Of a stretch of 64,000 bases of DNA, positions 1 through 14,378 are shown piece by piece. A program made the translations under genes and the position numbers. A model generated the notes under the pieces. That model searched no databases, had not been told where the DNA came from, and worked only from the letters and a program-made list of their open reading frames with translations. Position 1 is the stretch's first letter. Each line of letters begins with the position of its first letter. This DNA comes from Burkholderiales bacterium (GTDB taxonomy: Bacteria > Pseudomonadota > Gammaproteobacteria > Burkholderiales > UBA6910), in NCBI GenBank assembly GCA_026005015.1, contig BPKG01000001.1, forward strand, positions 1,245,501 through 1,309,500, in the 5' to 3' direction.

Positions 1-272
1 AAGAAAACGCCCGCGTAGCTCAGGAGGGCGGCGAGGGCCGCCAGGCGCAGGATCTCCACCCGACGGCCGGTGGCGTCGGCAAGCCAGCCCCACGCCGCGG
101 GGGCGAGCATGCGCATCACCTGGGGCAGGGCCATGAGCAGCCCGATCTCGGCCGCCACGTACCCGAGGGAGCGCAGGTACAGGCTCCAGTAGGGCGCGAA
201 CGCGCCCACGAAGGCGAAGTAGAAAAAGTAGAAGCCGGCGAGGGGCCCGTAGGGGAAGGAGCGGTCAGACAT
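1..272 (-). CDS. MFS transporter, N-terminal part (cut by window edge)
   Basis: The minus strand reads from an ATG at 272 through about 90 codons to the window edge without a stop. The translation starts MSDRSFPYGPLAGFYFFY and continues with alternating hydrophobic segments and a loop GWLADATGRR between putative helices 2 and 3. That loop is the usual position of the major facilitator signature. The N-terminal pattern resembles the HcaT/phenylpropionate-permease-like branch, in which a transporter is often found next to aroC. The substrate cannot be told. It lies downstream of aroC on the same strand with a gap of about 130 bp, so cotranscription is possible. Only the first two to three helices are present. 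Confidence 0.8.
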   Translation of the reverse strand, partial: MSDRSFPYGPLAGFYFFYFAFVGAFAPYWSLYLRSLGYVAAEIGLLMALPQVMRMLAPAAWGWLADATGRRVEILRLAALAALLSYAGVF

Positions 273-6660: not shown

Positions 6661-7748
6661 TACGTGTTCTGGATCACGATCTTGGGGAACGCCGCGGAAT
6701 GGTCCTGGGCGAGCTCGGCGATCTTGACCGCGACGCGGCGCGCGATCGCCCTGTAGATCTCGGCGATGCGTCCCTCGGGGTCGGCCACCACCGATGGCTT
6801 GCCGGAATCGGCCTGCTCGCGGATGCGGATGTCCAAGGGCAGCGCCCCCAGGAGCTCGACCCCGTAGTCCTGGCACATGCGCTGGGCTCCGCCCTCGCCG
6901 AAGATGGGCTCCTCGTGTCCGCACTTGGAACAGATGTGGATGCTCATGTTCTCCACCACGCCCAGGATCGGGATGCCCACCTTCTCGAACATCTTGAGCC
7001 CCTTGCGCGCGTCGATCAGGGCGATGTCCTGGGGCGTGGTGACGATGACGGCGCCGGTCACGGGCACCCGCTGGGCCAGGGTGAGCTGGATGTCGCCGGT
7101 TCCCGGCGGGAGATCCACCACCAGGTAATCCAGGTCGCGCCAGCGGGTCTCGTTGAGCAGTTGCTCCAGGGCCTGGGTGACCATGGGTCCCCGCCACACC
7201 ATGGGGGTATCGAGGTCGATCAGGAAACCGATGGACATGGCCTGCAGCCCGTGGCCTTCCATCGGCTCCAGGCTCTTGCCGTCCCGGGACTCGGGACGCC
7301 CCCGGATGCCCAGCATCATGGGCTGGGAGGGACCGTAGATGTCCGCGTCCAGCACCCCCACCTTGGCGCCCTCGGCGGCCAGGGCCAGGGCCAGGTTGAC
7401 GGCGGTGGTGGACTTGCCCACGCCGCCCTTGCCGGAGGCGACCGCGATGATGTTGCGGATGCCCGGTACCAGCTTCACCCCCCGCTGCACGGCGTGGGCG
7501 ACGATCTTGTAGGCGACGCTCACGTGGACCCCGCCCACCCCGGGCAGGCTTTTCAGCTTATCCGCCACCATGCGGCGGATCGAGTCGAGAACGCTCTTGG
7601 CGGGGTAGCCGAGGACGATGTCCACGGACACCCGGTCCCCGTCCACCTTCACGCCCTTGACGGACTTGCCCGTCACGAAATCCTTGTGGGTATTGGGGTC
7701 AATCAGCGCTCTGAGCGCCTCTTGAACCTGCTGCTCGGTGATCGCCAC
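6660..7748 (-). CDS. apbC: Mrp/ApbC-type iron-sulfur cluster carrier ATPase
   Basis: A cytosolic P-loop ATPase that binds and transfers Fe-S clusters. The 362-residue product has an N-terminal MIP18/DUF59 domain (about 1-85). The deviant Walker A GKGGVGKST follows at about 108-116, with switch motifs DADIYGPSQP and DLPPGTGD. The cluster-binding CxxC is in ICSKCGHEEPIFG. The start is GTG, with AGGAGG spaced well upstream. It is transcribed divergently from metG, an arrangement common in Beta- and Gammaproteobacteria. Fe-S enzymes in the window such as NirB and NasA are possible clients, but that is inference. Confidence 0.94.
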   Translation of the reverse strand: MAITEQQVQEALRALIDPNTHKDFVTGKSVKGVKVDGDRVSVDIVLGYPAKSVLDSIRRMVADKLKSLPGVGGVHVSVAYKIVAHAVQRGVKLVPGIRNIIAVASGKGGVGKSTTAVNLALALAAEGAKVGVLDADIYGPSQPMMLGIRGRPESRDGKSLEPMEGHGLQAMSIGFLIDLDTPMVWRGPMVTQALEQLLNETRWRDLDYLVVDLPPGTGDIQLTLAQRVPVTGAVIVTTPQDIALIDARKGLKMFEKVGIPILGVVENMSIHICSKCGHEEPIFGEGGAQRMCQDYGVELLGALPLDIRIREQADSGKPSVVADPEGRIAEIYRAIARRVAVKIAELAQDHSAAFPKIVIQNT

Positions 7749-7832
7749 AGAACCCTCCTACGGCCGATGCCGCTAAACGTATTATTGTAACGAAATCCAC
7801 CCGCCAGCCGCTCGTCGAGCCCAGCACTTTGT

Positions 7833-7838
7833 TAAAAT
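7833..7838 (+). promoter_or_regulatory. Candidate -10 box of metG
   Basis: TAAAAT lies 29 bp before the metG ATG in the 118-bp divergent gap with mrp. No good -35 is seen at the expected distance, so support is limited to position and AT content. On the opposite strand TACAAT (7789-7784) could serve mrp. Confidence 0.35.
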
Positions 7839-7866
7839 TCGGTTTTTCGAGGGCCTTGCCGACTCC

Positions 7867-9915
7867 ATGCAAAAACGCCGCCTCCTGGTCACCTCCGCCC
7901 TGCCCTACGCCAACGGCGCCATTCACCTGGGCCACCTGGTGGAGTACATCCAGACCGACATCTGGGTGCGTTTCCAGAAGATGCAGGGCCACGAGTGCCA
8001 TTACGTGTGCGCCGACGACCAGCACGGCACCCCCATCATGCTGCGGGCGGAGAAGGAAGGAATCTCCCCCGAGGCCCTGATCCGTCGCATGCTGGAGGAG
8101 CACAAGCGGGACTTCGCCGGCTTTCACGTCCAGTTCGACAACTATTACGAGACCAATTCTCCCGAGAACCGGGAGCTTTGCGAAGAGATCTTCCGCCGCC
8201 TGGACGAGGGCGGCTTCATCGCCCGTCGCTCGGTGGAGCAGTTCTACGACCCGGTCAAGCAGATGTTCCTGCCTGACCGCTACATCAAGGGCGAGTGCCC
8301 CCGCTGCGGGGCCAAGGACCAGTACGGGGACGCCTGCGAAGCGTGCGGCGCCACCTACTCCCCCACGGAACTCAAGAACCCCTATTCGGTGATTTCCGGC
8401 GCTTCTCCGGTGCGCAAGTCTTCGGAGCACTACTTCTTCCGCCTCTCGGATCCCCGCTGCCGGGCGTTCCTGGAGGCGTGGACCCGCTCGGGGACGCTGC
8501 AGCCGGAGGCGGTGAACAAGCTCCAGGAGTGGTTCGCCGCCGGGCTCCAGGACTGGGACATCTCCCGCGACCCCCCCTACTTCGGCTTCCCCATTCCCGG
8601 CACGAACAATCAGAAGTTCTTCTACGTGTGGCTCGACGCCCCGGTCGGCTACTTCGCCAGCTTCAAGAACCTGGCGGAGAAACGCCGCAGCAAAGGCGAG
8701 ACCATCGACGTGGACGCTTTCCTGCGCTCCGAGGACGAGACGGAGCTCGTCCATTTCATCGGCAAGGACATCCTGTACTTCCACGCCCTGTTCTGGCCAG
8801 CCATGCTCGAATACTCCGGCTACCGCACGCCGTCGAAGATCTATGCCCACGGCTTTCTCACGGTGAACGGGGAGAAAATGTCCAAGTCCCGCGGTACCTT
8901 CATCACCGCCGAAAGCTACCTCGCCCAGGGGCTCAATCCCGAGTGGCTGCGCTACTACTACGCGGCCAAGCTGGGCCCCACCATGGAGGACATCGATCTC
9001 TCCTTGGACGACTTTGTCGCCCGGGTCAACTCGGACCTGGTGGGCAAGTACGTGAACATCGCGAGCCGCTGCGCCGGTTTCATCACCAGGCGCTTCGAGG
9101 GAAGGCTGGCGCAGAGCCTGCCCCCCCACCCCTTGCTCGACGAACTCAAGCAATCCCGGCACGACATCGAGATGCTGTACGAAGGCCGGGAGTACGCCAA
9201 GGCGCTGCGCACCATCATGGGCCTGGCGGACCGGGCTAACCAGTACGTGGACGACCAAAAACCGTGGGAGGTGGCGAAATACGCAGAGCGCGCCAAAGAG
9301 CTGCAGCAGATCTGCAGCATCGGCCTCAATCTCTTCCGGCTGCTGACTGTCTACTTAAAGCCGGTGCTGCCCAAGCTGGCCGGGGACGTGGAAGCGTTCC
9401 TCGACGTGCCGCCGCTCACGTGGGCGGATTCCGGCAGGCTGCTGAACGACCACGTCATCAAGCCCTACCGGCACCTGATGACCCGCATCGATCCCCGGCA
9501 GATCGACGCCCTGATCGAGGCCAACCGGGAATCGATGGTAGGCGCGACCCCCGCCCCTCACGCTGAAGCCAGGGCGCGCTCCCAGGCGACGCCCCAGATC
9601 AGCATCGACGACTTCAACCGGGTGGACCTGCGGGTGGCCCGCATCCTGGCGGCCGAGGCGGTGCCGGGGGCGGACAAGCTCCTCAAGCTCACCCTGGACC
9701 TGGGGGAGGAACGGCGCACCGTGTTCGCCGGGATCAAGTCGGCTTACGCGCCGGAGGTCCTCGAGGGCCGGCTCACCGTGATGGTGGCGAACCTCGCTCC
9801 CCGCAAGATGAAGTTCGGCGTCTCCGAAGGGATGGTGCTCGCCGCCGGCGATGGCGAAAGCATCTTTCTCCTCTCCCCGGACGACGGAGCGCAACCCGGC
9901 ATGCGCATAAAATAG
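7867..9915 (+). CDS. metG: Methionyl-tRNA synthetase
   Basis: Charges tRNA-Met. The 682-residue product has the class I HIGH-type motif HLGH at 20-23 and a zinc knuckle of two CxxC pairs (CPRCG and CEACG). It has the KMSKS loop at about 337-341, the anticodon-binding helical domain, and a C-terminal EMAP/Trbp111-like tRNA-binding domain ([11 protein letters not shown] to the end). This is the full dimeric bacterial form, about the E. coli length. A cyclase-like gene follows 42 bp downstream on the same strand. Confidence 0.97.
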
Positions 9916-9957
9916 GCCCGAGGCCCCGCGCGGGCAGCCGCCCATCAGGAGCACCGA

Positions 9958-11184
9958 GTGCAGGCATCAGCGAACCGCACCTTCATCTGCAGCGTCCTGT
10001 TCCTGGAGATCCCGGGCTACGCCCAGAAGCCAGTGGCCGAGCAGGTGAGCCTCAAGGAAAGGTTCAACGCCCTGCTCGGGGAAGCGCTGAAGACCGTGCC
10101 GGCCAAGGACCGCATCGTCCTCGATACCGGAAGCGGCGCCGCGGTGAGCTTCATCGGCAATCCCGAGGACGCCCTAACCGTGGCGGCGCGGCTCGCGGCG
10201 CTGCTCGACCTCCACGGCCCGACCCTGGACGTGCGTTGCGGCATCAACCTGGGCCCGGTCAAGCTGATCAAGGACGTGAACGGCCAGCCCAACATCATCG
10301 GCGACGGCCTCAACGTGGCCCAGCGGATCATGGCCTTCGCCGAGGCCGGACAGGTGCTGGCCTCGCGCCCGTACTACGAGGTGCTATGCCGCCTGTCCGA
10401 CGCCCACGCCCGGCGCTTCGACTACCTGGGCTCCCGCACCGACGACCACGTGCGGGCCCACGAGGTCTATGCGCTGCGCTCGCCCGGGGGCGCGAACGAG
10501 GACGCGCCCACCGTCAAGCTGGCAGCGCTGGAAGCCCCCGAGCAGCCCGTCCCCCCCGCCGCCTCGGGCCGGCGGGCCTACCTTTTGGGCCGGTGGGCGC
10601 TTCTGGGCGCGCCGCTTGTGGCGGCGGCCGTCATCATCGTCCCGCTGGTCCTGCGGGAAGGCCCGCCTCCGCCGTCCCGGGACGTCTTCCCTTTGCCGCT
10701 GCCTCCCGGGACAGGGATGGACCCCTACGCCGCCCCGCCGGGGCCTGAGCCCGCCGCCGAGCAAAGCCCGCCGCCGCGCCCCGCAAGCTCCCGCCCGGTC
10801 GAAGCGCTACGCCTAGGCGAGCCCGTCCCGGTGGGCCCCGAGGGGGCGCCGAAGCCGTCGGCTCCCCCGGCAGCGCCGCAGTCCACGCCGGAAGCCGTGC
10901 GCAAACAGGCGGCAGCGGCGGCGCCCGCCGTCCCGCCGCCGGCCCCGGCACCTGGCGCAGTGCCAGCCGCGATCCCTAGCGCCCACTTGGAGTTCGCCAT
11001 CTCCCCATGGGGGGAAATCTACGTGGATGGAAAACTCGCCGGAGTGAGCCCGCCCCTGCACAAGCTGGACGTGGCCGCCGGCACCCACACCATCGAAGTG
11101 CGCAATTCGGACTTGCCGGCCCACCGGCAGACGGTCCACGTGGAACCCGGCGAACGGGTTAAAATCAAGCACAAGTTCCGCTGA
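9958..11184 (+). CDS. Class III cyclase-like domain, membrane anchor and PEGA-like tail (probably catalytically dead)
   Basis: A 408-residue protein starting at GTG, with AGGAG six bases upstream. Residues 8-175 resemble a class III nucleotidyl cyclase homology domain. The segments GDGLNVAQR (N119 and R123 transition-state positions) and FDYLGSRTDDHVRAHEVYAL are typical of this subfamily. The two positions where metal-binding Asp is expected appear as Glu (LFLEIPGY, E17) and Ser (LDTGSGAAVSF, S59), so activity is doubtful. A transmembrane helix (about 213-233) precedes a Pro/Ala-rich linker and a C-terminal PEGA-like beta domain (about 341-408) ending in KIKHKFR, likely outside the membrane. 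It is followed by a lipoprotein gene 12 bp downstream and then a Ser/Thr kinase, so an operon is likely. Confidence 0.75.
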   Translation: MQASANRTFICSVLFLEIPGYAQKPVAEQVSLKERFNALLGEALKTVPAKDRIVLDTGSGAAVSFIGNPEDALTVAARLAALLDLHGPTLDVRCGINLGPVKLIKDVNGQPNIIGDGLNVAQRIMAFAEAGQVLASRPYYEVLCRLSDAHARRFDYLGSRTDDHVRAHEVYALRSPGGANEDAPTVKLAALEAPEQPVPPAASGRRAYLLGRWALLGAPLVAAAVIIVPLVLREGPPPPSRDVFPLPLPPGTGMDPYAAPPGPEPAAEQSPPPRPASSRPVEALRLGEPVPVGPEGAPKPSAPPAAPQSTPEAVRKQAAAAAPAVPPPAPAPGAVPAAIPSAHLEFAISPWGEIYVDGKLAGVSPPLHKLDVAAGTHTIEVRNSDLPAHRQTVHVEPGERVKIKHKFR

Positions 11185-11196
11185 CCAGGGAAGGCC

Positions 11197-11601
11197 ATGA
11201 AGAGCGCAGGTGGGTGGGTTTTGGCGGCGCTGGGCGTCCTCGCCCTCGGGGGCTGCGAAACCCAGCCTGTCAAGGAGGTCCAGCGGGAGGTCCAGGCCCT
11301 GTGGCGCGGCCCGGGCGAAGCAGACCTCTCGACCGGCATCCAGCACTACGAGAACGGAAACCACGCCGAGGCCTACCGCAGGTTCCAGGCAAGCCTCGCC
11401 AAGGGGCTTTACTGGAAAAGCGATCAGGTGCAGGCCTATAAATACCTGGCGTTCATCGACTGCGCCTCCGGCCGGGAACGGGCCTGCCGGGACAATTTCG
11501 TGCGCGCCCTGACCCTCGATCCCGACCTGGAGTTGGCCCCGTCCGAGGCGGGACATCCCGTCTGGGGCCCGGTTTTTCGCAGCGTCAAGGCCGGCCGCTG
11601 A
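11197..11601 (+). CDS. TPR-like lipoprotein, resembles TssQ-family proteins
   Basis: A 134-residue protein with a type II signal peptide ending LALGGC (lipidated C20). The mature part has helical repeat character (GIQHYENGNHAEAYRRFQAS and KYLAFIDCASG...CRDNFVRALTLDP), that is, one to two TPR units. It ends with the motif EAGHPVWGPVFRSVK. This pattern matches what I recall of lipoproteins annotated as the TssQ family, associated with type VI secretion in some genomes. No other T6SS gene is in this window. It sits 12 bp after the cyclase-PEGA gene and 9 bp before the kinase gene. A role as an envelope partner of the kinase is inference. Confidence 0.75.
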   Translation: MKSAGGWVLAALGVLALGGCETQPVKEVQREVQALWRGPGEADLSTGIQHYENGNHAEAYRRFQASLAKGLYWKSDQVQAYKYLAFIDCASGRERACRDNFVRALTLDPDLELAPSEAGHPVWGPVFRSVKAGR

Positions 11602-11610
11602 GGAAAGCCC

Positions 11611-12912
11611 ATGGAGCTCCGGCGACTTGGCCGCTACGAGATCCTGGGCGAGCTCGGCAAGGGCGCCATGGGGGTCGTCTACCGGGCCATCGACCCCGTC
11701 CTCCAGCGCACGGTCGCCGTCAAGACCATTCCCATGTACCTGGACCCGTCCGAACAGGCGGAGTACGAGGCCCGCTTTTACCACGAGGCCAAGGCGGCCG
11801 GACGGCTGAGCCACCCCAACATCGTCACCATCTACGACGTGGGCAAGAGCGGCGACACCACCTACATGGCCATGGAGCTGCTGGAGGGCCAGGATCTCAA
11901 GAGCCTACTCGCGCCGAAGAAGCCCCTGCCCATTCCCCAGGCCCTGGACATCGCCGCCCAGGTGGCCGACGGGCTCGCCTACGCCCACGAGCACGAGGTG
12001 GTGCACCGGGACGTGAAGCCGGCCAACCTGATGATCACCCGGTCGGGGCTGGTGAAGATCATGGATTTCGGCATCGCCCGTATGCGCGCCTCCGAGATCC
12101 GCACCCAGACCGGTGTGCTGCTGGGCTCCCCGAGCTACCTCTCCCCCGAGCAGGTGCTGGGCAAGCGGGCCGACCACCGCTCCGACATCTTCAGCTTAGG
12201 CATCGTGCTCTACGAGATGCTGACCGGGGAGCGCCCGTTCACCGGCGCCGAGATCACCGCCATCATGTACCAGATCGTCCACTTGAGCCCGCGCGCCCCC
12301 AGCGTGCTCAATCCGGAGGTACCCGAGATCCTGAACTTCGTCGTGGCCAAGGCGCTGGCCAAGTCGCCCGAAGACCGCTACCAGGACGCCCGGGAGTTCG
12401 CCGCCGACCTGCGGGAATGCCGCAAACACGTGGAATCCCAGGTTCAACCCAAGATTTCCATCGACCTCGATGCGTTCCCCAAGCATTCGGCCAACCGGCT
12501 GGCCGACGGCGGCACCGGCGCCATCGTGGGCGGCAACTTCCCGGCGGGCCGCAAGATGGACGCGGCGCCCGAGCCGGCCGTGCCGCCCGAAACCCCGGTG
12601 GCGCTGGGCATCTCCACCCATTTTGACTCTTTCGATGCCACGCTGCGCCTGGTGACGGCCACCGGCGCCGCGGAGCAGTTCGGCGAGTACATCAAGACCC
12701 AGAAGATCGCCCGCGCCGGCACGCCCGCCGCCAGGTCCGCGCCGCCGCCCAAGCGAATCACGCCTCCCACAGGAACGGCCGCCGACAAGCCGGCGGCGCC
12801 GGTTCAGCGGGCGGAGGCGGCGCGGAACTCCCCCCTTTCGCGCAAGGCCTTGGTCGTGGGTCTCGCCCTTGCCATCGCCCTGGCGGTCGCGCTGGTTGCC
12901 GTCCTTTCCTGA
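11611..12912 (+). CDS. Membrane-anchored Ser/Thr protein kinase
   Basis: A Hanks-type (PknB-like) kinase of 433 residues. The glycine loop is at 14-22 (ELGKGAMGV), the ATP lysine at K38, catalytic HRDVKPAN at 132-139 (D134), DFG at 152-154, and the activation segment runs to SPEYLSPEQ-like SYLSPEQ. The kinase core ends near residue 275. A low-complexity Pro/Ala-rich linker follows, then a single C-terminal helix (about 410-432) with almost nothing after it, so the kinase faces the cytosol. It is the last gene of a likely three-gene operon with a cyclase-fold/PEGA protein and a lipoprotein. Substrates are unknown; no phosphatase is adjacent. Confidence 0.93.
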   Translation: MELRRLGRYEILGELGKGAMGVVYRAIDPVLQRTVAVKTIPMYLDPSEQAEYEARFYHEAKAAGRLSHPNIVTIYDVGKSGDTTYMAMELLEGQDLKSLLAPKKPLPIPQALDIAAQVADGLAYAHEHEVVHRDVKPANLMITRSGLVKIMDFGIARMRASEIRTQTGVLLGSPSYLSPEQVLGKRADHRSDIFSLGIVLYEMLTGERPFTGAEITAIMYQIVHLSPRAPSVLNPEVPEILNFVVAKALAKSPEDRYQDAREFAADLRECRKHVESQVQPKISIDLDAFPKHSANRLADGGTGAIVGGNFPAGRKMDAAPEPAVPPETPVALGISTHFDSFDATLRLVTATGAAEQFGEYIKTQKIARAGTPAARSAPPPKRITPPTGTAADKPAAPVQRAEAARNSPLSRKALVVGLALAIALAVALVAVLS

Positions 12913-12944
12913 ACTTTTCGCGCGTTTTGCCACACTACTTTTAT

Positions 12945-12968
12945 GCCTCTTTTGAATTTCGAATGGGT
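12945..12968 (+). repeat. Left terminal inverted repeat of the ISL3 element
   Basis: 24 bp starting GCCTCTTTTG, matching the complement of the right end at 21 of 24 positions. The GGCTCTT-like tip is typical of the family. Confidence 0.85.
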
Positions 12969-12982
12969 GCTACTGGCATAAC

Positions 12983-13063
12983 CGGCTTGAAGCCGGGGTC
13001 AAGGGCGGGCGGCGCGCCTTTTGCCGCCCGGCGCAGCGCACCCTTGACGCCGACTTCAAGCCG
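12983..13063 (+). repeat. Large hairpin inside the ISL3 leader
   Basis: CGGCTTGAAGCCGGGGTCAA (from 12983) pairs with the complement of the stretch ending CGACTTCAAGCCG (to 13063), with only a few mismatches over about 25 bp. A GC-rich centre (13007-13038) forms the loop. It lies between the left terminal repeat and the transposase start. It may bind transposase or block read-through transcription. Confidence 0.75.
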
Positions 13064-13073
13064 ATACGCTCGT

Positions 13074-13112
13074 CCAAGGCTGGATGCGGCAGAATGCGGC
13101 ATCCAGCCTTGG
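13074..13112 (+). promoter_or_regulatory. Perfect 14-bp hairpin overlapping the transposase Shine-Dalgarno
   Basis: CCAAGGCTGGATGC (13074-13087) is perfectly complementary to GCATCCAGCCTTGG (13099-13112), with an 11-nt loop. The 3' arm runs into the GGAG at 13111-13114, the only Shine-Dalgarno-like site before the transposase ATG. In a transcript entering from outside, this hairpin would mask it. Similar structures limit read-through expression in other insertion sequences. Confidence 0.7.
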
Positions 13113-13128
13113 AGACAACAACGCGATC

Positions 13129-14355
13129 ATGCACAACCAACTGTTTGAAGCCGCCCTCGGTGTTACCTCGCCCTGGTTCGTCCAGGGCGTCGATTTCGAT
13201 GCCGCCAAGAAGACCCTGACGATTGTGATCGACTTTGCCGCCGGCAGCCGCTTTGCCCATCCGGCGGCCGCCGGGCTGCACCCGGTGCACGACACCCAGG
13301 TCAAGCGTTACCGGCATCTGAACTTCTTCCAGCACGAGTGCTACCTGGAAGTGCGCACGCCCCGGGTGAAGCTGCCCGACGGGCGGGTGGTGCTGGTCGA
13401 GCCCGACTGGGCGGGCAAGCTCTCGGGCTTCACGCTGCTCTTCGAGGCCCTGGTGCTCGCCCTTGCGCGCGAGATGTCCTTTGCGGCGGTGGCCCGCACG
13501 GTGGGCGAATCCTGGCACCGGGTGCATGCAATTTGCGCCCGCTACGTGGAGCTGGCCGTGGCCGAGGCCGATCTGTCCGAGACGACGGCGCTGGCCATCG
13601 ACGAGACCTCCTACCGGCGCGGCCACAACGACCTCACCGTTGCCGCCGATGCCGACGAGCGCAAGGTGGTGTTCGTGACCGAGGGCCGGGACGCCGAAAC
13701 CATCGAGCGGCTGGCCGAGCACCTGACGGAGCATCAGGCCAGTCCCGAACAAATCGCTTCGGTGAGCATCGACATGTCGCCCGCCTTCATCAAGGGCGTG
13801 ACCGACCACTTGCCCAACGCGCGCATCACCTTCGACAAGTTCCACGTCGTCGCCCATGCCTCTGCCGCCGTCGACAAAACGCGCCGCCTGGAGCAGAAGA
13901 CCGACCCGAGTCTCAAGGGCCTGCGCTGGGCGCTGCTCAAGGATCGCGACCGCCTGCCCGCCGCCCAGCGGGCCGATCTTGATGCCCTGATCGCCCAGGT
14001 GACCACCAAGCGCACGGCGCGCGCCTGGGCTTACCGCGAACAGCTGCGCGAGATCCTCGAGCGCAGGCAGATCAACGTGGTGCGCACCCTGCTCGCCCAA
14101 TGGTGCACGAACGTCATGCGCTCCAAGGTCGAGCCGATGAAGGAAGTCGCCCGGCTGATCCGCAACCACTTCGAGGGCATCGTCGCCTGGACCCAGACCC
14201 GCCAGACCAATGGCTTCCTGGAAGCCCTAAATGGGCTGTTCCAGGCGGCCAAGCGCAAGGCGCGCGGCTACACCCGCTTCGCCACGATGCGCACCGTGCT
14301 CTTCCTCATCGCCGGAAAGCTCGATTTCGCTCGGATCAACCCGCATGCCGCGTAA
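13129..14355 (+). CDS. ISL3-family transposase
   Basis: A 408-residue DDE transposase. The N-terminus MHNQLFEAALGVTSPWFV matches the usual beginning of the family. The catalytic core includes ALAIDETSYRRGH (first Asp), SIDMSPAFIKGV (second Asp), FDKFHVV, and the distal NGFLEALNGLFQAAKRKARGY carrying the Glu. I chose the ATG at 13129. An in-frame ATG at 13084 would lie inside the leader hairpin and add 15 residues unlike the family. The reading frame is intact from end to end, so the element could still be mobile. Confidence 0.9.
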   Translation: MHNQLFEAALGVTSPWFVQGVDFDAAKKTLTIVIDFAAGSRFAHPAAAGLHPVHDTQVKRYRHLNFFQHECYLEVRTPRVKLPDGRVVLVEPDWAGKLSGFTLLFEALVLALAREMSFAAVARTVGESWHRVHAICARYVELAVAEADLSETTALAIDETSYRRGHNDLTVAADADERKVVFVTEGRDAETIERLAEHLTEHQASPEQIASVSIDMSPAFIKGVTDHLPNARITFDKFHVVAHASAAVDKTRRLEQKTDPSLKGLRWALLKDRDRLPAAQRADLDALIAQVTTKRTARAWAYREQLREILERRQINVVRTLLAQWCTNVMRSKVEPMKEVARLIRNHFEGIVAWTQTRQTNGFLEALNGLFQAAKRKARGYTRFATMRTVLFLIAGKLDFARINPHAA

Positions 14356-14378
14356 CCCACTCAAAATTCAAAAGAGCC

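Follow-up and report, generated by a model that had tools for sequence, protein, structure and literature searches.

What function joins a cyclase-fold membrane protein, a lipoprotein and a Ser/Thr kinase whose genes follow one another almost without gaps? The question is raised by a locus in a Burkholderiales bacterium (GTDB UBA6910; GenBank assembly GCA_026005015.1), on contig BPKG01000001.1. The window, here and below, is the whole stretch of DNA analysed (64,000 nucleotides, positions 1,245,501 to 1,309,500 of the forward strand), and coordinates are counted from its first base. An earlier interpretation made from the letters alone, called here the sequence-only reading, had proposed that three genes at 9958-12912 might form one transmembrane sensing unit, in which a PEGA-like domain and a lipoprotein read the envelope and a degenerate cyclase modulates the kinase. 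We find that the trio is a conserved operon shared by many related bacteria, and we judge, with somewhat more confidence than doubt, that it is a split trans-envelope sensing unit built around a Ser/Thr kinase. A literature search, with most subscription journals outside its reach, found no title or opening of an abstract that describes the trio or its function, no paper joining "adenylate cyclase" with "PEGA domain", and none joining a PEGA domain, a kinase and type VI secretion.

A conserved three-gene operon

Three open reading frames (ORFs) were confirmed on the + strand at 9958-11184, 11197-11601 and 11611-12912, with intergenic gaps of 12 bp (11185-11196) and 9 bp (11602-11610), as the sequence-only reading had described. 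The features of the locus are as follows.

9958..11184, + strand: gene 1, cyclase homology domain, transmembrane helix, Pro/Ala linker and PEGA domain in one protein (408 aa, GTG start)
9979..10476, + strand: gene 1, class III cyclase-fold domain, residues 8-173 (model, alignment)
10594..10653, + strand: gene 1, single transmembrane helix, residues 213-232 (Arg residues before the helix)
10978..11175, + strand: gene 1, PEGA domain, residues 341-406 (PF08308, model; probably periplasmic by topology)
11197..11601, + strand: gene 2, TssQ_fam TPR-like lipoprotein (134 aa; lipobox Cys20; TssQ match over residues 41-132)
11611..12912, + strand: gene 3, tail-anchored Hanks-type Ser/Thr kinase (433 aa)
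11635..12381, + strand: gene 3, kinase domain, residues 9-257 (PF00069)
12850..12909, + strand: gene 3, C-terminal tail-anchor helix, residues 414-433 (hydropathy; no periplasmic domain beyond it)

The composite architecture claimed for gene 1 was borne out. The PEGA domain matches PF08308 at 22.7 bits, above the Pfam cut-off of 20.8. The cyclase match of the window copy (PF00211, 14.8 bits) lies under its cut-off of 21.9, and 15 of 17 aligned homologues match the same family at E<=0.01. The model of residues 8-173 has the fold of a class III cyclase: it superposes on Ma1120 (5d0e) with Z 21.3 and a root-mean-square deviation of 2.0 over 159 residues, and the best Foldseek match is Rv1900c (1ybt, E 2.6e-11). 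A profile of the 17 homologues also retrieves cyclase structures by sequence, including 5oyh (2e-10) and 3mr7 (3e-9, over residues 11-157). The fold matches to gene 1 are dominated by the cyclase domain, and the PEGA fold is barely tested by them. Beyond the cyclase domain the protein continues with an Arg-rich stretch, the helix at 213-232, a disordered Pro/Ala linker and a beta domain at 341-406. Because Arg residues precede the helix, the N-terminus is predicted to lie inside.

Gene 2 scores 95.9 bits against the NCBIfam model NF038027 (TssQ_fam), whose curated cut-off is 65. The lipobox cysteine, Cys20, is invariant in 12/12 aligned members, and a strict lipobox pattern was found at 26 of the 31 loci measured; some of the misses are non-standard lipoboxes or wrong starts set by the gene caller. 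The structural model is compact, helical and TPR-like, with a pLDDT of about 97 over the domain. The single TPR match (PF07719, 23.5 bits) falls under the Pfam cut-off of 27, and Foldseek returned generic TPR matches only, none at E<=0.001. A TPR-bearing lipoprotein, as first proposed, is consistent with these results. In some loci, which carry L numbers here as families carry f numbers, the lipoprotein is duplicated, with two TssQ matches in one protein or in adjoining proteins (L139, L153, L154, L159 and five more of f194; also L009, L015-L017, L024 and L025). One paper, available in part, names a TssQ family lipoprotein within a bufferin gene cluster.

Gene 3 is a Ser/Thr kinase (PF00069, 185 bits) with the catalytic residues K38, D134 and D152 of the K, HRD and DFG motifs, which are kept in 49/49 rows of its type (48 loci and the window). 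Its last ~20 residues are hydrophobic, in agreement with the C-terminal helix anchor that had been read from the sequence, and all 31 measured kinases of the same type carry a hydrophobic stretch at the extreme C-terminus (mean hydropathy 1.68-3.19). Since this anchor sits at the very end of the protein, the kinase would have no periplasmic part of its own. Over residues 7-275 gene 3 matches NF033483 at 355 bits, below the cut-off of 450, and Pfam gave no PASTA match in gene 3.

Conservation of the linkage was examined at 120 TssQ places fetched from order-level genomes and searched with profiles built in this analysis. Outside these 120 stand the copy in the window, nine second TssQ domains of one ORF, and four matches under the cut-off (one inside L078). 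TssQ_fam occurs in 117/399 order-level genomes (116 above cut-off) and in 4/274 class-level genomes (2 above cut-off). A cyclase~PEGA fusion gene accompanies TssQ at 52/120 places, in 52 genomes and 12 families. These cyclase-type places comprise 40 with the kinase, 9 with a double TssQ and the kinase, and 3 without an adjacent kinase, so that the kinase is present at 49 and the linkage extends beyond close relatives. Because it recurs in 12 families, the arrangement is not due to chance. The genes are also closely spaced: the median gap between the cyclase gene and tssQ is 8.5 bp (31/34 within -20..100), and between tssQ and the kinase gene 7 bp (29/31 in the same range). A simple gene caller lost some of the 52 loci, so that 34 gave a value for the first gap and 31 gave one for the second. 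The source genome (3.38 Mb, 7 contigs, 95% complete) holds one match to gene 1, one to gene 2 and five to the kinase.

A named genome collection gave a similar picture in 27 loci, mostly betaproteobacterial, with the full trio in L004-L008, L010-L013 and L019. Open frames combining a kinase with a PEGA-like end were seen as well in L026-L029, which come from Bacteroidetes, WOR-3 and another distant record. Each lies near a gene of one cluster, whose member in L013 looks, by reading alone, like a sigma-54-type activator.

Split and fused forms of a probable sensing unit

A second arrangement indicates how the three proteins may be connected. At 53/120 places (51 genomes, 15 families) the PEGA domain is fused to the kinase, and TssQ follows; the remaining places are 3 with a divergent kinase~PEGA gene and 12 others, one of which (L075) starts at the edge of its contig and could be a truncated operon of the cyclase type. 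The named collection adds kinase~PEGA with TssQ at L018, L020 and L023. None of the fetched genomes carries both the cyclase-type and the kinase~PEGA locus, versus 7.2 expected if the two were independent (kinship ignored). In a kinase tree of 102 rows, from which 10 long or T6SS-linked (type VI secretion system) rows were left out, the cyclase-type kinases form one clade (99/96) that is sister to the kinase~PEGA type, and the two types jointly are separated from a further kinase encoded in these genomes (100/100). The two forms also share chromosomal positions: 20 cyclase-type and 27 kinase~PEGA loci lie near radA (named from its domain make-up), and 16 and 22, respectively, near alr. As hints to function these neighbours were set aside: those shared by many loci have housekeeping roles (radA, alr, dnaB) and therefore inform on position rather than function. 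In one genome (L078), TssQ and PEGA are naturally fused in a single ORF.

Thus the PEGA input appears to have switched partners, being attached to the kinase in one form and to the cyclase in the other, frequently at a shared chromosomal position, with TssQ staying. With its base unsettled, the kinase tree gives no direction for the move. Such a move argues for a single trans-envelope sensing unit, and this gene-fusion evidence suggests that the kinase, the PEGA protein and the lipoprotein work together. The unit proposed in the sequence-only reading therefore gains support from the 53 kinase~PEGA places, the sister kinases and L078, while the notion of a cyclase degenerate as a class, which was part of it, does not hold (see below).

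In the split form that we favor, the periplasmic input would be the PEGA domain of gene 1 together with the TPR-like lipoprotein of gene 2, assuming that the two touch. The condition of the pair, whether bound or released, dimeric or monomeric, near to its membrane or away from it, would be relayed by the single helix of gene 1 to the cytosolic cyclase-fold domain. This domain would then act in trans on the tail-anchored kinase, most simply by gathering or separating kinases in the membrane, and the kinase would phosphorylate cytosolic targets. A two-FHA-domain protein is a candidate reader and a PP2C phosphatase a candidate eraser of these marks. We infer, along with this topology, that cyclase and kinase would be in contact, that the signal would be an envelope state, and that FHA and PP2C proteins would be the partners.

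The FHA/PP2C pairing was drawn from the fused form, in which a PP2C cluster occurs at 40/56 and a two-FHA-domain cluster at 33/56 kinase~PEGA loci (the 3 divergent loci included). The source genome has an FHA/PP2C pair at another locus (C1:1066810-1068309), and PP2C adjoins the FHA gene in 20/20 loci picked by an FHA match (the source genome and 19 cyclase-type genomes). The FHA protein is present in 51/53 cyclase-type genomes against 116/282 TssQ-negative ones (odds ratio 36, p 2e-15, kinship ignored). As a dedicated partner it was rejected, its gene usually adjoining another kinase; it is kept as a candidate partner of the trio kinase, as a lead only.

Several observations weigh against the split-unit reading. 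The kinase is not adjacent at 3/52 cyclase-type places, and of these L182 ends a short contig while L084 and L086 do not. In the named collection, no TssQ was detected between the cyclase and kinase genes of L003, and no kinase was found in L009, L015-L017, L024 (3.9 kb only) and L025, which hold cyclase~PEGA, or its PEGA end, with two TssQ matches. PP2C and FHA clusters occur in 0/52 cyclase-type loci. A different, longer kinase stands beside the FHA protein in 16 of the 20 loci (one a partial match), and 116/282 TssQ-negative genomes have the FHA protein too; given both of these facts, it may serve that different kinase. Finally, a quick kinase tree with the long rows kept needs two changes rather than one, and the trees of PEGA (5 label changes) and TssQ (3 label changes) have too few columns to establish the domain transfer.

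A second conserved Ser/Thr system was noticed in L192-L210 (except L201, L202 and L207), where a long kinase frame, about 860 codons where whole and with its kinase domain near the C-terminus, is followed by PP2C and the two-FHA protein. L195, L197, L206 and L208 have an extra open frame with a weak cyclase-profile match.

The cyclase-fold domain and alternative explanations

Whether gene 1 makes a nucleotide product depends on residues that differ between the window copy and its family. By alignment, positions 17 and 59 correspond to the metal-binding Asp residues of 3mr7 and position 55 to its Lys, and position 112 corresponds to the Asp/Cys position of the rhodopsin-guanylyl cyclase structures 5oyh and 6sir. 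In class III cyclases a Lys/Asp base-selecting pair marks adenylyl and a Glu/Cys pair guanylyl activity; the guanylyl pair is named, as E497 and C566, in the title of one structure match. The window copy has neither pair: L55 and N112 occupy the base-selecting positions by alignment. It has also replaced the metal-binding Asp pair with E17 and S59, keeping N119 and R123. Across 79 family domains (78 from loci, including the distant outlier L032 from a class-level genome, and the window), the conserved residues are D17 in 74, D59 in 71, N119 in 75 and R123 in 78. All four are kept in 70/79 (45 of the 52 cyclase-type loci of the order). Position 55 is Leu in 73/79 and position 112 is Asn in 72/79, and one shared signature with Leu/Asn at these positions is found in 64/79. 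The description "degenerate cyclase" is therefore right for the window copy and wrong for the family as such.

The second metal Asp is also lost in a copy of the same genus (L160), and catalytic departures occur in L163, L175 and L178 (f211) and in L128, L148 and L182 (f201). Save for L182, at a contig end, these copies keep cyclase~PEGA, TssQ and kinase together. Compared with L160, the window's cyclase domain is 77% identical, with a ratio of nonsynonymous to synonymous substitution rates (dN/dS) of about 0.26; the same ratio is 0.19 for PEGA, 0.135 for TssQ, 0.09 for the kinase domain and 0.17 for metG. That the fold stays constrained although the metal ligands are gone suggests that the cyclase-fold domain serves for binding or as an adaptor in the lineage of the window.

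The alternative that fares best is a second-messenger unit: in most of the family the class III cyclase would be active, with an unusual base preference, and switched by PEGA/TssQ, and its product would regulate the kinase or be regulated by it, the window copy having lost catalysis. Retained activity would be in keeping with a Leu/Asn signature this uniform and with the conserved set of four catalytic residues. Against this, the catalytic residues have been lost repeatedly with the operon kept, in the genus of the window and in members of f211 and f201, which suggests that cyclase activity is dispensable. Furthermore, no linked receptor gene was seen in the gene clusters of the loci (a genome-wide search was not made), the two cyclase proteins tested (window and L010) matched 0 PADLOC families at E<=0.1, and pyrimidine cyclases are described in PMC11224242 with other base residues, as judged from that description and not from aligned positions. 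We consider this alternative doubtful. For the same reasons (no PADLOC match; described base residues that differ) a Pycsar pyrimidine cyclase was rejected, as was a wider defence role, the cyclase and lipoprotein being without a PADLOC match and the many PD-T4-6 matches of the kinase covering a generic kinase domain.

The two readings can be joined. PEGA/TssQ could drive a class III cyclase of undescribed base preference, which in turn would act on a Ser/Thr kinase. Certain lineages, that of the window among them, would have lost catalysis and kept the cyclase as a pure allosteric adaptor of the kinase, and one event would have transferred PEGA from the kinase to the cyclase or the other way. 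This combined version, with all of its parts, is in our view unlikely.

It is very improbable that the trio is merely co-transcribed after metG with no joint function. The end of metG (7867-9915) lies 42 bp upstream of gene 1, metG is also upstream in five further loci (L003, L004, L005, L007 and L011), and a weak scan of 7700-13100 for sigma-70-like promoters found none (0.5 expected by chance). However, the three genes stay together beside metG, beside radA or alr and elsewhere, and the sister form has two of the parts joined in one protein.

The name of the lipoprotein suggests a further possibility. NCBI calls it a "TssQ family T6SS-associated lipoprotein", and the trio would accordingly belong to type VI secretion control by threonine phosphorylation. 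Some TssQ places do have T6SS genes nearby: TssC is less than 30 kb away at 11/120 (others may be masked by broken contigs), and it is found in 19/51 kinase~PEGA genomes, 3/3 divergent and 9/11 other genomes. By contrast, the source genome (95% complete) gave 0 matches to TssC (TssC/VipB), so that the name misfits it, and TssC occurs in 2/52 cyclase-type genomes, in neither within 30 kb of the locus. Over all 399 genomes, 31 have both TssQ and TssC, 86 TssQ only, 63 TssC only and 219 neither, showing no association (odds ratio 1.25, p 0.37). A minority of TssQ places sit in or near T6SS clusters and the NCBI name over-reaches for the rest; on the presence and distance of TssC, a T6SS role in the source genome was set aside as the least credible of these explanations, despite a logic resembling that of TagQRST-PpkA-Fha-PppA (PMC11881912, available in part).

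Downstream of the trio, an ISL3-family element (transposase match) at 12947-14376 has its left end 34 bp past the kinase stop. Its 22-bp end repeats (12947-12968 and 14355-14376) are 91% complementary, and two short palindromes lie inside the left end (12983-13063 and 13073-13113). A phosphatase-kinase fusion lies about 51 kb away from the trio: an ORF of 584 aa on the - strand, straddling the right end of the window (from about 63710; G000:C1:1309210-1310640), has both a kinase and a PP2C match.

If the split-unit reading is true, 117 of the 399 sampled order-level genomes carry an envelope lipoprotein family that is labelled T6SS and lies mostly away from T6SS, and at 52 of its 120 places the sensor partner of TssQ rides on a cyclase-fold protein beside the kinase, not on the kinase itself. 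The fused and split forms, often at one chromosomal place, would then amount to a natural experiment in the communication between a single-helix sensor and a Ser/Thr kinase, and the lineages that lose catalytic residues would mark where cyclase activity is dispensable.

Comparison with known systems

Among related systems are the kinase~PEGA/TssQ/PP2C/FHA loci of the same order, identified in this analysis, which share a sister kinase clade, the same lipoprotein family, the PEGA profile and often the radA/alr position with the trio. Unlike it, they carry PEGA on the kinase and have no cyclase. The Bacteroidota TssQ, in contrast, is a different protein from the gene 2 family and shares the name alone. 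In the accessible part of PMC10781749 it is described with one N-terminal transmembrane helix, TssR being the lipoprotein of that complex, and by this description it is set apart from gene 2, which is a lipoprotein (lipobox Cys in 12/12).

Individual parts resemble better known proteins. Gene 3 has a Hanks kinase domain like the PASTA-type kinases PknB, Stk1 and StkP, but nothing follows its anchor, the extracytoplasmic domain being carried by another protein of the operon. Gene 1 has the fold of class III cyclases such as Rv1900c, Ma1120 and the rhodopsin-guanylyl cyclase (Z 20-21) and their active-site N and R; its family differs in being mostly Leu/Asn at the base-selecting positions, and the window copy in lacking the metal Asp pair.

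The nearest functional parallel is TagQRST-PpkA-Fha-PppA of Pseudomonas aeruginosa, which senses outer-membrane damage according to the available part of PMC11881912. The two would be alike in logic, likened by description and not by sequence: both combine an envelope lipoprotein with a membrane Ser/Thr kinase, and the fused sister form mostly adds PP2C and FHA. Unlike TagQRST-PpkA, the trio stands in a genome without TssC, as do all but 2 of the 52 of its type, and its input would be PEGA plus a TPR-like lipoprotein, with PEGA carried on the cyclase-fold protein and not on the kinase.

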